Shown here: in pieces, positions 58,871 through 63,840 of the stretch
How the letters are laid out: the number at the start of each line of letters is the position of its first letter
Position numbering within the stretch: position 1 is the first letter of the stretch
Source: Acidobacteriota bacterium
GTDB taxonomy: Bacteria > Acidobacteriota > Terriglobia > Terriglobales > Acidobacteriaceae
Length of the DNA: 64,000 nucleotides
Reading direction: 5' to 3'
NCBI GenBank assembly: GCA_021792135.1
Contig: JAJYVF010000012.1
Span: 1 to 64,000, forward strand
The notes under the pieces: model-generated
The model's input: the letters and a program-made list of their open reading frames with translations, nothing else
Databases searched by the model: none
Told to the model about the DNA's origin: nothing
Program-made: the position numbers and the translations under genes

Positions 58871-59133
58871 TCCCGGGAACTCTCCTTCTCATGCGGCTCT
58901 GCCGGAGGGCGGCAGAACCCGGATGCACGATGTGTTGGCAGGCGCTCAGACGCCGGCCCCCTATCATTTCATGCGAATAAGATCCTGAAAACCAGGATCG
59001 CTCTGGCACGCCTGAGAGCCTGCAGGGGCGAAGACCGGGTCGGCCCGGGCCTGTTGCACATGCGGGCACCATCGGAGCGGGCGCGGTGAGGCATAAAATG
59101 GAGTTAATCTCCTGCCGGGATAACATCTGACAC

Positions 59134-60018
59134 GTGCGCTCCGAACTGGAAAAGGCCATCGCACTTCTGGGGAAGCGAGATGCTGAGAGTTTCCAGCATG
59201 CGCTTGGCCTGCTGCGGAAAACGGTCTTTTCGTTCAGCATGAAGGTTTGCGGTCATCGCGAAGATGCGGAAGACACGGTGCAGGAGGTGCTGCTGAAATC
59301 GCTTCCGCACCTGACCCGGCTGCAGGATCCGCAGGCGCTTTCCGCCTGGCTGTATACGGCCGCAAAGAACCGCTGCTGGCAAAGCCGGAGACGAGCGTCG
59401 TATCAGCGTTCCGTGCCGCTGGACGCGCTGGCGCCGGACGAAGCCGAACTGAAGACGCTGCTGCTGGCCGATGCCGCGCCCGATCCGGAAAGGCAGGCCT
59501 CCAGGCAGGAGGATCATCAGCTGCTGCATCAGGCGGTGCTGCGCCTGCCTGTGCAGTATCGAATCGTCCTGGTTCTCCACGACATGGAAGAGCTGGATAC
59601 CGAGCAGCTGGCGAAGATTCTTTCGCTGCAGCCGGGAACGGTCCGCATCCGGCTGCATCGCGCGCGCCTGATGATGCGGAAAGAGATGGCAAAGCTGCTG
59701 CAGGGCGCCGCCGAGAAGCCGTCGGCGAAGAAGGCGGCAAGGAAGGCGGCCGCGCGGCGCGGCCCTGAGTGCCGGGAGATTTTCTCCAATCTTTCCGACT
59801 ATCTCGATGGCAGGCTGCAGCCGGAGACGTGCGACCGGATGCGCCATCACATTGAGGCCTGTCCGGCATGCGTTGCGTTTATCCGGGACCTGAAGCGCGC
59901 TATCGACCGCTGCCGCTCGCTCGATCTGAGCCCTGACTCGGAAGCGTCGCCGGTGCTGCGCCGACTGCTGACCCAGGAATATCTCCGCCTCCTGAAGAAG
60001 TCCCCTCCCGATCTGTAA
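59134..60018 (+). CDS. ECF-type sigma factor fused to a zinc-finger anti-sigma domain
   Basis: A 294-residue protein joining two normally separate parts. Residues 25-90 form sigma region 2 (G-H-R-E-D-A-E-D-T-V-Q-E-V, residues 40-52; W-L-Y-T-A-A-K-N-R). Residues 130-185 form region 4 with D-T-E-Q-L-A-K-I-L and G-T-V-R-I-R-L-H-R-A-R. A Lys/Ala-rich linker (residues 192-209) leads to a zf-HC2/ZAS domain: C213, then H239-x3-C243-x2-C246. ZAS domains normally sit in membrane anti-sigma factors; here there is no membrane segment. Intramolecular inhibition released by oxidation or zinc loss is plausible but inferred. The start is GTG 59134 with a weak ribosome site. The OsmC-type gene follows 105 bases later. 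Confidence 0.87.
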   Translation: MRSELEKAIALLGKRDAESFQHALGLLRKTVFSFSMKVCGHREDAEDTVQEVLLKSLPHLTRLQDPQALSAWLYTAAKNRCWQSRRRASYQRSVPLDALAPDEAELKTLLLADAAPDPERQASRQEDHQLLHQAVLRLPVQYRIVLVLHDMEELDTEQLAKILSLQPGTVRIRLHRARLMMRKEMAKLLQGAAEKPSAKKAARKAAARRGPECREIFSNLSDYLDGRLQPETCDRMRHHIEACPACVAFIRDLKRAIDRCRSLDLSPDSEASPVLRRLLTQEYLRLLKKSPPDL

Positions 60019-60123
60019 CGAACCCCGTTCCGCCGGCGTTTCAGAAGTGTGGCGGCATCCGAAACCGGCGCTCCCCGGAGCGTACCCAGGAAACTGGATT
60101 GGCAAGACAGGAAAGGAAGAACC

Positions 60124-60564
60124 ATGGAAGTGCAGGTAACCCAGACCGATGGAATGCGCTTCGCGATTCGAGCCCGCGCCCATACCATCGTGAGCGATCA
60201 GCCGGCGGAGAACGGCGGCGCCGATGAGGGGATGACACCCCCTGAACTGCTGCTCGCTTCGCTCGGGTCGTGCGCCGCGTTCTATGCCGCGCAGTACCTG
60301 AAGACGCGCAGGCTGGCGGAAAGCGGAGTCGAAGTCTCCGTGAGCGCCGAGAAGCTGAAACCGCCGGCGCGGCTCGGGAAGTTTCGCATCGATGTGATCT
60401 CTCCCGTGGTTCTCACGGACGAGCAGCAGCAGGGGCTGCTGCGGTCGGTGCATCAGTGCCTGGTGCACAACACGCTGCTCTCGCAGCCGGAGATTGCCAT
60501 CAGCCTGGTTCGCCAGGGTCAGGCCGCGGAGTCGCACGCCGCCGATGTGCTGACTCCGGCCTGA
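60124..60564 (+). CDS. OsmC-family peroxiredoxin-like protein
   Basis: A 146-residue protein of the OsmC/Ohr fold. The two thiols that reduce organic hydroperoxides are C50 (L-G-S-C-A-A-F-Y) and C112 (H-Q-C-L-V-H-N-T-L). The P-P-E-L-L-L-A-S-L start of the central helix is typical. AAGGAAG precedes ATG 60124; an upstream in-frame start at 60049 would reach back near the sigma factor stop and is less likely. Following the sigma/zinc-finger fusion, it could be a target of a thiol-stress response; this is inference. It converges on the cytochrome bc unit. Confidence 0.88.
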   Translation: MEVQVTQTDGMRFAIRARAHTIVSDQPAENGGADEGMTPPELLLASLGSCAAFYAAQYLKTRRLAESGVEVSVSAEKLKPPARLGKFRIDVISPVVLTDEQQQGLLRSVHQCLVHNTLLSQPEIAISLVRQGQAAESHAADVLTPA

Positions 60565-60576
60565 CCTGGTCTGGGT

Positions 60577-63258
60577 TCACTGGTTGCCGGCAGGGGCGGG
60601 CATGGAACGAATAAAGGCTATCAGTGCGCGCATGTCTTCCGGGTTCAGGTTGGTAAGGGGCATACCGCCTCTCTGCATCCGCTGTGAGTGGTGCCGCAGC
60701 AGGTTCTCCAGAACGTCTGCGGGAAGCAGCGAAGCAGTGCCGGCCAGCGGCGGGGCGGCAATGGTTCCATGCAGGCCGCCGACTCCGTGGCAGGTTTCGC
60801 AGGACATGCGCTGGAAGATGCGCTGACCCTGCTGCGCCAGCGGGCTGAGAGGCGCCGCCGCCGGAGGAGGCGCGGCAGCGGCGGGTGCCGCGGCAGCTGA
60901 CTGGACTGGCTGTGCACCGGCGACCTGCGCTGCGGCCGCAGCCTGTGCAGCCCCCGGAGCGGCGGCTGCAGGCTCGAGGCTGGAGAGATAGCTCACCAGC
61001 TGCTGAATCTGCGTGTCGGTGAGATTGAAGGTAGGCATGCCTCCGGCGCGCATTGCGGCGGTGGGGTGGCGCAGCAGGCCCGCCACCTGGCCGTCAGGAA
61101 ATTTCCGTGTGATGCCGACCAGCGAGGGAGCAAAGCGGGTTCCGTGGGCTGTGGGCCCATGGCAGGCCGCGCATCCCTCGGAGAGGAAGAGGGCGCGTCC
61201 GGGACTGGGCTGGACAGCTGCGGCGGGAGCAGGTGCTGCGGCCGCAGGAGCCGCAGCGGGCGCGGGGGCAAGAGCATTCGCCGCCACCGGCGCCGTGGGT
61301 GAAGCCGAGCCGGCGGCCGGCATTTCCGGATAGGGAACGCTGCCTCCCTCCGAGACAGGCGGCGGCGCCGGTGCCTGCTGCCGGGGCTGCTGGGGTGAGC
61401 GCAGCGTGCGCAGATAGCCGATCAGCAGATTACGCTGTTCGGCGGTCCCGGAGAAGGCAGGCATGCCTCCGGCTCTCATCCTGGCTGTGGGATTTTCGAG
61501 GGCCTGCGCCAGCTGGGCATCGGAGAGATGTGCGATGAGCGGCGCCAGCGCGGGAGCGCGTCCGCCCTCTCCGGCTGGGCCATGGCAGGCAAAGCAGGCG
61601 TGCTCCTGAAACAGTTCGTGACCCGCGGCGGTTGCGGCCGAAACCTGCGGCGCAGCGGCCGGCGGTGGCGCGACCGCGGGTGCGGCCCCGCCGGGAGCTG
61701 TGGAGGCGGCCTCGCGCACGGCGGACAGCGGTTCCGCAGGCGCCCCGGAAGAGGCCTGCACGTACGCCGCACTGGTGCCGATGACGCCCAGATAGGCGAC
61801 GAGGGCATTCATATCGGCGCCGGAGATATCGACGGCAGGCATGTGGCCGGCGCGCATACCTGCATTTGGATTGTGCAGCAGCGCAACCAGCTGCGGTTCA
61901 GGAAACTTCGTCGTTACACCCTGCAGGCTGGGCGCGACCGTGGTGCCCAGGCCAACATCGCCGTGGCATCCGGAGCATCCGTGGGCCTGAAAGATGCCTC
62001 TTCCCTGCGAGACCAGGGGGTTGACCGGACCGGCAGGCAGAGCGAGCGGGCCGGTGGCGCCGGGAGATTCGATGTACGGCCGAAAGGGGGCAGCGGTGTA
62101 CGCCTCTTCCTGCTGTCTCTGCAGAGCAAGCTGCGCGGCAATGGCCGGATCGTCGCGGTCGTCAACCCGGCTCCTGACGCCCAGGAAGATGGTCCCGAGC
62201 AGAACCACCGAGACGGCGAGCACCGGAATCGGCCTGCGCCATGGCCGGCGCTCGAGCCTGCGGTCGAGGAACGGCAGCAGGAAGAAGAGCAGGGCCAGAA
62301 CGGCAGGAGTGATCACGACCGCGAACACCACCTTCGGCCCTTCCCAGAACTTGAGCCATTCGAACGCGGGCAGATAATACCACTCGGGCCGGGGCAGGTA
62401 GTGCGTGTCCGCGGGGTTGGCGATGGGTCCCAGCCCCACCGGACGGGCGTATGCCAGGAATCCCAGACCCGCCATGAGGAGCAGCGCGAAAGCCATATCC
62501 ATGAGAACCTGGCGCGGATAGAAGCCCTCGGGAGGGAGTTTGGGTGCTACGGGGTCTTCCTGGATGGGACCGGCTGCGCCAGCCTTGCGGAAGAGGAAGA
62601 TGTGAATGGCGATAAAGGCGAAGATCGCCCCGGGCAGGACAAAAACGTGGGCGACAAAAAAGCGCGACAGGGTGAGGGTGCCGATGGTATCGCCGCCACG
62701 CAGCAGGCGCGTGAGCCACTGGCCGATCCAGGGCACCTGGCCGACGATATTTGTCCCGACGGCGGTTGCGAAATAGGCCTTCTGATCCCAGGGAAGCAGA
62801 TAGCCGGTGAAGCCCATGCCCAGCACGAAGAGGGAGAGCGTCGCTCCGGAGATCCAGAGCAGCTCGCGCCTGCCCTTGAAGGAGCCGTACAGGAAGGTTT
62901 GCAGGAAGTGGAGGACCAGCACGATGATCATCGCGCTGGAGCCGTAGTAGTGGAGGCTGCGCAGGAAGTCGCCTGCCGCCACCTGTTTGGTGATGTAGGC
63001 AACGCTGGTGTGCGCGGTTTCCGCCGAGGGAACGTAATAGAGCGCGAGGCAGACGCCGGTGATGATCTGGGAGATGAAGATGAACAGCAGTCCCGAACCA
63101 AACACGTAGGCGAATCGCGCTCCGCCGGGAATCGGCTCGTCGAGGGATTCCCTCATCAGCTTGTCGACGCCGGCCCGCCGGTCAAGCCAGTGGAACAGGC
63201 GGGTTCGGGCACTGGCGCCGCGCGGGGCGGCAGAGGTTACTTCGTGCTTTTCATCCAC
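60577..63258 (-). CDS. Cytochrome b fused to four tandem cytochrome c domains
   Basis: An 893-residue membrane protein. Residues 1-365 are an eight-helix cytochrome b (b6 plus subunit IV in one chain). Haem b ligands are H103/H117 and H204/H219; the 14 and 15 spacings are the b6-type pattern. The Q-site motif is P291-E-W-Y294. From about residue 415 come four cytochrome c units with C428-S-G-C-H, C555-F-A-C-H, C696-A-A-C-H and C820-E-T-C-H, each followed about 40-45 residues later by a candidate Met ligand (M473, M599, M741, M866) in a G-x-M-P setting. Ala/Pro-rich linkers separate units 2-4. No separate cytochrome c1 or f gene is seen in this window, so these domains probably take its role. 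The Rieske gene is just upstream. Confidence 0.92.
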   Translation of the reverse strand: MDEKHEVTSAAPRGASARTRLFHWLDRRAGVDKLMRESLDEPIPGGARFAYVFGSGLLFIFISQIITGVCLALYYVPSAETAHTSVAYITKQVAAGDFLRSLHYYGSSAMIIVLVLHFLQTFLYGSFKGRRELLWISGATLSLFVLGMGFTGYLLPWDQKAYFATAVGTNIVGQVPWIGQWLTRLLRGGDTIGTLTLSRFFVAHVFVLPGAIFAFIAIHIFLFRKAGAAGPIQEDPVAPKLPPEGFYPRQVLMDMAFALLLMAGLGFLAYARPVGLGPIANPADTHYLPRPEWYYLPAFEWLKFWEGPKVVFAVVITPAVLALLFFLLPFLDRRLERRPWRRPIPVLAVSVVLLGTIFLGVRSRVDDRDDPAIAAQLALQRQQEEAYTAAPFRPYIESPGATGPLALPAGPVNPLVSQGRGIFQAHGCSGCHGDVGLGTTVAPSLQGVTTKFPEPQLVALLHNPNAGMRAGHMPAVDISGADMNALVAYLGVIGTSAAYVQASSGAPAEPLSAVREAASTAPGGAAPAVAPPPAAAPQVSAATAAGHELFQEHACFACHGPAGEGGRAPALAPLIAHLSDAQLAQALENPTARMRAGGMPAFSGTAEQRNLLIGYLRTLRSPQQPRQQAPAPPPVSEGGSVPYPEMPAAGSASPTAPVAANALAPAPAAAPAAAAPAPAAAVQPSPGRALFLSEGCAACHGPTAHGTRFAPSLVGITRKFPDGQVAGLLRHPTAAMRAGGMPTFNLTDTQIQQLVSYLSSLEPAAAAPGAAQAAAAAQVAGAQPVQSAAAAPAAAAPPPAAAPLSPLAQQGQRIFQRMSCETCHGVGGLHGTIAAPPLAGTASLLPADVLENLLRHHSQRMQRGGMPLTNLNPEDMRALIAFIRSMPAPAGNQ

Positions 63259-63270
63259 GGTATCGCCTCA

Positions 63271-63840
63271 CTAACTCAGTTGTTCCTGGTTGGGCACATC
63301 GGAGCGGAAGTACTCGAAGTGGACCTGGAGCTTGCCCCCCTGGACTCTGGTGGGCAGGCGATCCATGGAACGCGGCGGTGGCCCAAAGACGTGCTGGCCG
63401 TCGGGGGCGAAGCGGCCGCCATGGCAGGGGCAGACGAACTCGTCCTGAGCCTTCTGCCAGGAGACGCTGCAGCCGAGGTGGGGGCAAATGGCAGAAAGAA
63501 CCTCCAGCTGGCCCTGCTGGCCGCGTGTGACATAGACCGACTGAGCCGAGACCACCTCGCGCCAGCCGTCACGCTGGGCAAAGGTGATGGTCTTGCGAAC
63601 GGGAGACGTCGAGCCGGCGAACTCGGTCATATCGCCGACGTCGGACCATTCCGTTCCGCTGGCTTTGGCGTAAAGCGGATAAAGGACATAGCGCAGCACC
63701 GGGATGGAGAGGAAAGCTCCCATGCCCGCGGTGCCGATGGCCATCAGCGCTCCGAAGAAGGAGCGCCGGTTGATGATGATGACATCCTTGCCGGCCGCGA
63801 CTCTTTCCGATGGTTTGCTGGTATTGATTTCCTGTTCCAC
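63271..63840 (-). CDS. Rieske iron-sulfur protein of a cytochrome bc complex
   Basis: A 189-residue membrane-anchored [2Fe-2S] protein. The two cluster loops are C119-P-H-L-G-C124 and C137-P-C-H-G-G142, giving two Cys and two His ligands plus the disulfide pair. The N-terminal I-N-R-R-S-F-F-G-A-L is a twin-arginine signal that remains as the anchor helix (about residues 24-50). GTG 63840 follows AGGAGAA by five bases. Twelve bases separate its stop from the cytochrome b-c fusion gene, so the two are one transcript. The large F-G-P-P-P-R segment near residues 152-157 is the Pro loop. It transfers electrons from quinol to the fused cytochrome c domains. Confidence 0.94.
   Translation of the reverse strand: MEQEINTSKPSERVAAGKDVIIINRRSFFGALMAIGTAGMGAFLSIPVLRYVLYPLYAKASGTEWSDVGDMTEFAGSTSPVRKTITFAQRDGWREVVSAQSVYVTRGQQGQLEVLSAICPHLGCSVSWQKAQDEFVCPCHGGRFAPDGQHVFGPPPRSMDRLPTRVQGGKLQVHFEYFRSDVPNQEQLS

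Follow-up and report, generated by a model that had tools for sequence, protein, structure and literature searches.

Among described systems, the one nearest in description to the protein considered here is sigma factor group ECF270, which has soluble ZAS anti-sigma factors and for which 'Acidobacteria bacterium SCN 69-37' is given as an example (PMC8999054, after Casas-Pastor et al. 2021). In the sections of that survey consulted, the table places certain members – Anaeromyxobacter is the example – among sigma factors whose regulatory extensions are taken to work through proteolytic activation; on our reading of the table, this extension is a fused ZAS domain. The same sections describe experimental data on the group as lacking and give no promoter, target or signal. 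More is on record for RsrA, the anti-sigma factor of SigR in Streptomyces: the excerpts of PMC4960319 consulted state that Cys11, its first zinc ligand, is required for redox sensing, and provide an exception to this first-cysteine rule in RslA, an HHCC protein reported to form a disulfide with peroxide. In the ZAS domain helix 1 sits on sigma4 and helix 4 on sigma2; the zinc site of RsiW is called structural, as such zinc sites can be (PMC7406223, in the parts consulted).

The locus described here lies in the window, by which we mean the whole stretch of 64,000 nucleotides of an Acidobacteriota genome that was analysed. It comprises a gene in which the regions of an ECF sigma factor are continued by a ZAS domain (hereafter the sigma-ZAS protein), and an osmC-family gene downstream (Table 1). 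All three Pfam domains of the sigma-ZAS protein – Sigma70_r2, Sigma70_r4_2 and zf-HC2, the last with its core at residues 213-246 (E 5.2e-11) – exceed their curated cut-offs. Regions 2 and 4 occur with no Pfam match to region 3, as expected of an ECF factor, and TIGR02937 (sigma70-ECF) scores 86.7 bits against a cut-off of 42.9; among 25 of 87 NCBIfam families listed, no equivalog reached its cut-off. The H-x3-C-x2-C signature of ZAS, or class I anti-sigma, domains is present as H239-IEA-C243-PA-C246, with C213 as the fourth potential ligand and C233 present too. Behind residue 185 there is no membrane helix: the top 19-residue hydropathy mean is 0.62 here and no more than 1.23 in a set of 130 proteins that includes a few unfused ones, which rules out a membrane-anchored fusion. 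The downstream gene matches PF02566 with 50 bits (cut-off 27.5), its start being most likely the ATG at 60124. The initial annotation had proposed just this layout – region 4, a basic linker and an H-x3-C-x2-C domain with no membrane helix, beside osmC – and open reading frame, Pfam, composition and hydropathy agree with it. We think it probable that the sigma-ZAS protein is an RsrA-like redox switch contained in one chain and controlling RND efflux and OsmC.

Table 1. Features of the sigma-ZAS locus, in positions of the window.
Feature	Position	Strand	Basis
Possible housekeeping -10 (TAAAAT) of sigma gene	59094..59099	+	Sequence
ECF sigma factor with soluble C-terminal ZAS domain in one chain (294 aa, GTG start)	59134..60018	+	ORF, Pfam, 32-protein alignment A1
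Sigma region 2 (residues 28-88)	59215..59397	+	PF04542 Sigma70_r2, E 1.3e-10
Sigma region 4 (residues 129-180)	59518..59673	+	PF08281 Sigma70_r4_2, E 2.5e-13; model-to-structure match
Basic, variable, probably flexible linker (22 aa, net +5)	59704..59769	+	Composition; low pLDDT
Anti-sigma-type domain (residues 206-294), predicted all-helical	59749..60015	+	PF13490; profile match RsiW/RsrA; model
Zinc-ligand stretch C213-x25-H239-x3-C243-x2-C246, plus C233	59770..59871	+	Alignments A1, A2
Predicted osmC promoter, TGTAAC (60014-60019) - N16 - GCGTTT (60036-60041)	60014..60041	+	Conserved in relatives; like site before RND operon
osmC-family gene (146 aa, cysteines C50 and C112)	60124..60564	+	PF02566, E 4.3e-13

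With ECF270 the sigma-ZAS protein shares, by the group's description, a soluble ZAS partner, separate or (on our reading of the table) fused. With SigR-RsrA it shares a soluble domain whose CHCC set is collinear with that of RsrA, and an OsmC neighbour that fits a thiol-oxidative response; RsrA, however, is a separate protein, whereas the present domain is part of the sigma chain and has an RND pump as its chief conserved target. The actinobacterial groups ECF52, ECF48 and ECF53 likewise carry sigma regions and then a zf-HC2-type domain in one chain, but are described, in the sources consulted, with one or two membrane helices and long extensions, in contrast to the soluble acidobacterial protein. 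CorE (ECF238) offers a cysteine-containing C-terminal regulatory extension and cytoplasmic sensing; it differs in having a CxC between regions 2 and 4, where residues 89-128 of the sigma-ZAS protein hold no cysteine. Finally, the SnoaL-fused group ECF41 (promoter TGTCACA-n16-CGTC) resembles it in a fused C-terminal regulator, a similar -35 element (TGTNAC) and a 16-base spacing, and departs from it in its targets and in a CGTC rather than NNNTTT -10; SnoaL gave no Pfam match at E up to 1. The comparison with C-terminally extended ECF groups that the initial annotation had recommended leaves ECF270 as the nearest in description, the distinguishing features of ECF52, ECF48, ECF53, CorE and ECF41 not being found.

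The sigma-ZAS protein is conserved well beyond its own genome. Matches at E <= 1e-30 occur in 13 of 41 genomes (its own and 40 relatives), at E <= 1e-50 in 59 of 150 family genomes and at E <= 1e-35 in 67 of 399 genomes of the class, some of the last being unfused; the searches covered samples of genomes. Among the 59 best matches in the family, 58 extend to residue 250 or further (three with one internal stop codon), and this conservation rules out a chance open reading frame. We assembled 126 fused loci, near-copies included: the window, 45 from a first set, and 80 from a second that represents the best 80 of at least 432 relatives and takes in Acidipila rosea DSM 103428 (L118), Granulicella, Terracidiphilus and Candidatus Sulfotelmatobacter. 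Alignment A1 holds the window and 31 of the 45 loci (32 proteins); A2 holds the window and 49 of the 80 (50 proteins), the 31 omitted including L128 and L146. C213, C233, H239, C243 and C246 are invariant in both alignments, as are cysteines C39 and C81 of region 2. The pattern C-x25-H-x3-C-x2-C recurs in 124 of the 126 fused loci, the two exceptions being L128, with a broken frame, and L148, with an insertion; L146 is missing the equivalent of C233. The linker behind region 4, where measurable, has a median length of 26 residues and carries positive charge in 117 of 123 proteins. In L128 (4001-4483) the sigma-ZAS frame breaks at 161 aa despite RND, methyltransferase and OsmC neighbours, which marks either a decayed copy or an assembly error.

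The extra domain resembles RsrA in its ligands and RsiW no less in its profile. In a phmmer search with the domain RsrA came top, weakly (E 0.063) and collinear through the motif, while the domain profile matched RsiW at E 2.7e-4 and RsrA at E 3.4e-4. In the alignment C213, H239, C243 and C246 take the places of RsrA Cys11, His37, Cys41 and Cys44. At the place of C233 native RsrA has Cys31. The solved construct has alanine there and serine at the place of C243, and a Cys41Ser change is mentioned in the parts of PMC4960319 consulted. The first ligand is thus a cysteine, C213, as in RsrA, and by alignment the set is of the CHCC type. The soluble zinc-finger reading of the initial annotation fits both this ligand pattern and the hydropathy of the domain, which would be expected to bind zinc. 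Structure prediction adds less: the full-length model has a pTM of 0.44, so that the ZAS domain is not docked with confidence onto the sigma part, and linker residues 191-210 have pLDDT values of 57-61. Its region 4 matches sigma4 structures (e.g. 3hug_C, Z 11.5, rmsd 3.3, 77 aligned residues), and its fold matches mostly cover residues 1-194, that is, the sigma part; a fold search with the model of the domain alone gave no usable match to solved folds. The helices predicted for the domain are compatible with placement of helix 1 on sigma4 and helix 4 on sigma2.

The likeness to RsiW bears directly on how the sigma part might be released. The domain could inhibit sigma and yet be removed by proteolysis rather than answer to thiol oxidation, its zinc site being structural as in RsiW. 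The profile that fits RsiW as well as RsrA is consistent with this, as are the ECF270 members with regulatory extensions tabled under 'proteolysis' in the consulted sections of PMC8999054 and the linker, which, being variable and modelled with low confidence, is probably exposed. We nonetheless regard proteolytic release as unlikely: there is no membrane helix for intramembrane cleavage, and the first ligand is an invariant cysteine in both alignments, unlike that of the HHCC proteins. Even so, the equal match to RsiW and the fact that zinc sites can be structural count against a purely redox reading, and redox sensing by the domain is here suggested by analogy with RsrA.

Where the domain came from is indicated by relatives in which it is not fused. 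In 11 relatives (families f5 and f6) the sigma gene ends after region 4, and in nine of these a short, separate H-x3-C-x2-C open reading frame lies directly behind it. In L046 and L047 the ZAS frame starts one codon past the sigma stop and in the same frame; the small protein of L046, the one scanned, matches zf-HC2, and the split ZAS frame of L048 is without the first cysteine. In the remaining two, L052 and L056, neither a fused nor an adjacent ZAS domain was found (a GreA-like gene, identified by eye, takes the next place behind the sigma relative). A further 18 homologous loci elsewhere in the phylum, drawn from 38 places outside the family, comprise five that are fused, 12 with a separate ZAS-like frame – 12 of the 13 unfused ones – and one with none. 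Since relatives encode the ZAS domain as a separate gene behind sigma, the fused domain appears to descend from an anti-sigma factor; judged by these sequences, it is a former anti-sigma factor, and the anti-sigma-type identity claimed in the initial annotation is borne out.

In a tree of the sigma part, a single clade (99/96) holds the 36 fused proteins sampled from the window's class, and the split ones fall outside it. The single fusion suggested by this class-level tree is too simple. Once more of the phylum is included, the most parsimonious history of the fused state has three changes, whether gains or losses, and no fewer than two are required by well-supported branches. Either a split ancestor gave rise to fused forms several times, or the fusion was later undone; we judge repeated fusion, on the tree, to be likelier than secondary loss.

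The neighbourhood of the sigma gene was mapped by tblastn with named proteins. The most constant partner of sigma is an OEP-MFP-RND efflux operon, which lies downstream of it, upstream or – in several split loci – divergent from it; where upstream, the order is RND, often a methyltransferase, sigma, osmC, and then LysR and YeiH-like genes. Among 107 dereplicated fused loci, and within the DNA covered, RND parts are present in 88, an OsmC-family gene downstream in 44, both in 41 and neither in 16. In the window itself osmC is the sole partner present, the RND operon of this genome being on another contig (C24), and OsmC as sole partner of the system is rejected in view of the more constant RND operon. 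The RND outer-membrane gene co-occurs with sigma across genomes (57 of 59 sigma-bearing against 7 of 91 others, Fisher p 7e-31, a value that overstates independence because the genomes are related and some are drafts). Seventeen fused loci have a second OsmC subfamily downstream of sigma, at distances of 85 to 2,370 bp, and three unfused ones have it divergently oriented; it replaces the first between sigma and the efflux operon in L154, L155, L157, L158, L160 and L162-L165, and the same replacement is seen in L019, L043, L045 and L058-L062. An OsmC gene precedes sigma by 48 bp in L046 and by 75 bp in L048, both of them split loci. Usp-like genes, recognised by eye, lie upstream of sigma in L093 and L118.

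An efflux pump next to a predicted CHCC metal site could also mean that the domain senses metal – an excess of zinc, or a thiophilic metal – and that the RND operon is a metal exporter. CorE sets a precedent, sensing metals via a C-terminal cysteine-rich domain (PMC8999054, in the sections consulted), and the adaptor protein of the operon matches HlyD_D23, described as a CusB/HlyD barrel-sandwich domain. Against this stand the absence of CorE's CxC between regions 2 and 4 and the partner genes identified, namely OsmC of two subfamilies, a methyltransferase, a YgaP-like membrane protein and Usp; metal sensing strikes us as improbable.

The sequence that links sigma to these genes is a candidate promoter. 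In relatives the sigma gene is followed by TGTAAC, 16 bases, and then GTCTTT, GCGTTT or CATTTA (read by eye), and the corresponding site before osmC, whose TGTAAC overlaps the sigma stop codon TAA, is the sole exact match in the window. The stop codon forms part of TGTAAC in many loci; in loci with a different end of sigma, the site is still present further downstream. An earlier, strict form of the motif matched only 41 of 106 loci because too many bases were fixed. The form TGTAAC-N15/16-NNNTTT, counted in 107 of the 126 fused loci after removal of near-copies, is present in 61 of the 73 in which an OsmC gene or the RND operon comes next (first OsmC type 25 of 29, second OsmC type 12 of 15, OEP 24 of 29), in one of the 34 with no such target behind sigma, and in 5 of 2,810 random control stretches of those loci; as the motif was found by eye and its form loosened on the same loci after misses were seen, these counts are descriptive. 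Several of the 12 misses are off by one base. Random stretches served as the control here, since reversed sequence keeps pairs and is unfit for a count of this kind. With a tighter -10, 41 matches have a spacing of 16 and 14 a spacing of 15, with at most one at each other spacing from 12 to 20. The -10 part varies by lineage, and the sites follow the sigma gene across families. The sigma gene itself is set apart from this pattern: no ECF promoter was found within 300 bp ahead of it in 136 loci, which leads us to reject one, and housekeeping-type -10 boxes are found in the 70 bp preceding it at 83 of 137 loci, whereas a stretch of equal length 235-300 bp upstream has them at 5 of the 136 loci that extend far enough. 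By its upstream sequence the gene looks to be driven by a housekeeping promoter.

Sites of the same kind are found away from sigma. Allowing any last base, 26 of 30 OEP operons of family genomes have one within 330 bp upstream: 13 of the 15 that directly follow sigma and 13 of the 15 located elsewhere, the own genome included. Counted by hand, as was the split itself, the latter divide into 6 of 6 on another contig, 6 of 8 more than 5 kb off on the same contig, and 1 of 1 in a genome with no sigma match. Random 360-bp stretches of the OEP loci have a site in 154 of 2,400 cases, an upper bound as true sites were not removed. In the own genome TGTAAC-N16-GNSTTT occurs at five sites against 1.2 expected and one in the reversed control, two of the five lying before no obvious target. 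A version narrowed after that result was seen, TGTAAC-N15-GGCGTTT, has three exact sites against about 0.06 expected by composition; these precede osmC in the window, the operon OEP-MFP-RND-YgaP-like-methyltransferase on contig C24, and trxC. The copy before trxC (C24:292651-292678) lies 223 bp ahead of the gene for thioredoxin 2 (292030-292455, L177), and trxC as a conserved target is unsupported, the site being absent from five other sigma-bearing and 24 sigma-lacking genomes (30 of 40 matches examined). A copy with one mismatch (C24:278444-278471, L176) stands just before a Usp gene divergent from the RND operon. Genome-wide there is no enrichment: TGTAAC-N16-GTCTTT gave 48 sites against 44 in the reversed control (hand count) over 150 genomes, and two mismatches in the own genome gave 59 against 93. 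The case for a regulon consequently depends on the position of the sites before orthologous genes, and on that basis RND efflux and OsmC are well supported as predicted targets. The initial annotation had osmC as the gene possibly driven by the sigma factor and would have been undermined in part by an osmC promoter with no ECF site; a conserved ECF-like promoter does precede osmC, which emerges, however, as only one target, the RND operon being the more constant. A ZAS domain that works chiefly in trans, or that serves as a passive or an activating appendage, with the TGTAAC sites read by another regulator, we think highly improbable: the model has no confident docking, the trxC site is not conserved and the draft genome G470 (73% complete), with no sigma match, keeps the site before its OEP, but the sites track sigma across families with a -10 part that varies by lineage, their spacing is nearly always 15-16, and sigma and the RND OEP co-occur.

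Taken as a redox switch, the sigma-ZAS protein would work as follows. Sigma regions 2 and 4 would be tethered to their own former anti-sigma factor, the CHCC ZAS domain. Reduced and zinc-loaded, the domain would fold back and keep both regions off RNA polymerase, as known ZAS complexes suggest. Oxidants, electrophiles or thiol-reactive compounds would then, as in RsrA, join C213 to C243 or C246 in a disulfide with loss of zinc, and the domain would collapse – still attached, yet harmless – leaving the sigma part active. A tethered inhibitor is unable to dissociate, so that release would have to come from its collapse, a mechanism that the structure of RsrA makes plausible. Active sigma would recognise TGTAAC-N15/16-NNNTTT (GCGTTT here) and so express the adjacent osmC and the unlinked OEP-MFP-RND operon with its methyltransferase, and perhaps trxC and the divergent Usp gene; in loci with upstream RND genes, read-through from their promoter into sigma may provide feedback. 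The parts of this scheme differ in standing. Comparison supports the homology of the domain, its descent from a split pair, the promoter and the targets; inhibition in cis we infer by analogy with ZAS complexes; OsmC and efflux would fit other signals too. For the Acidobacteriota at large, we would put at even chances the broader proposal that a sigma/RsrA-type pair tied to an RND pump and OsmC became, in more than one fusion event, a single-chain redox sensor and transcription factor released by collapse of the tethered domain, so coupling efflux straight to thiol oxidation in the cytoplasm.

ZAS anti-sigma factors of the soluble kind are widespread, and some fused members of ECF270 seem to be listed already; the architecture alone is therefore probably not new and seems to have been noted before. 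The contrast with membrane anti-sigma factors drawn in the initial annotation needs correcting to that extent. What seems to be added to existing knowledge is the promoter with its targets, the conservation of the CHCC set and the recurrence of fusion. Literature searches, limited and covering few subscription papers, found no description of ECF270 beyond PMC8999054 and none of this system under fused zf-HC2/ZAS sigma factors or ECF factors with OsmC and RND. Few fused sigma/anti-sigma proteins have been studied, and those named in the sources consulted, IutY and SCO4117, have membrane parts. A soluble, minimal version of 294 residues with a defined promoter and targets could be used to ask whether a tethered anti-sigma factor is a complete redox switch; RND efflux and OsmC would provide a testable regulon for an ECF type, in a soil phylum, for which experimental data are lacking. 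It also points to a way in which a sigma factor could couple efflux to thiol stress. MexT of Pseudomonas, a LysR-type regulator and not a sigma factor, works alike with MexEF-OprN, by analogy only. In that system the RND pump is induced by thiol or electrophile stress (PMC10333786, in the parts consulted).

A separate feature of the window lies on the reverse strand immediately beyond osmC. The 893-aa protein encoded at 60577-63258 combines cytochrome b/b6 with several cytochrome c domains (four stretches matched), joined by proline/alanine-rich linkers, and is preceded by a Rieske-like protein (63271-63840, recognised by eye); together the two would constitute an unusual fused bc-type complex.
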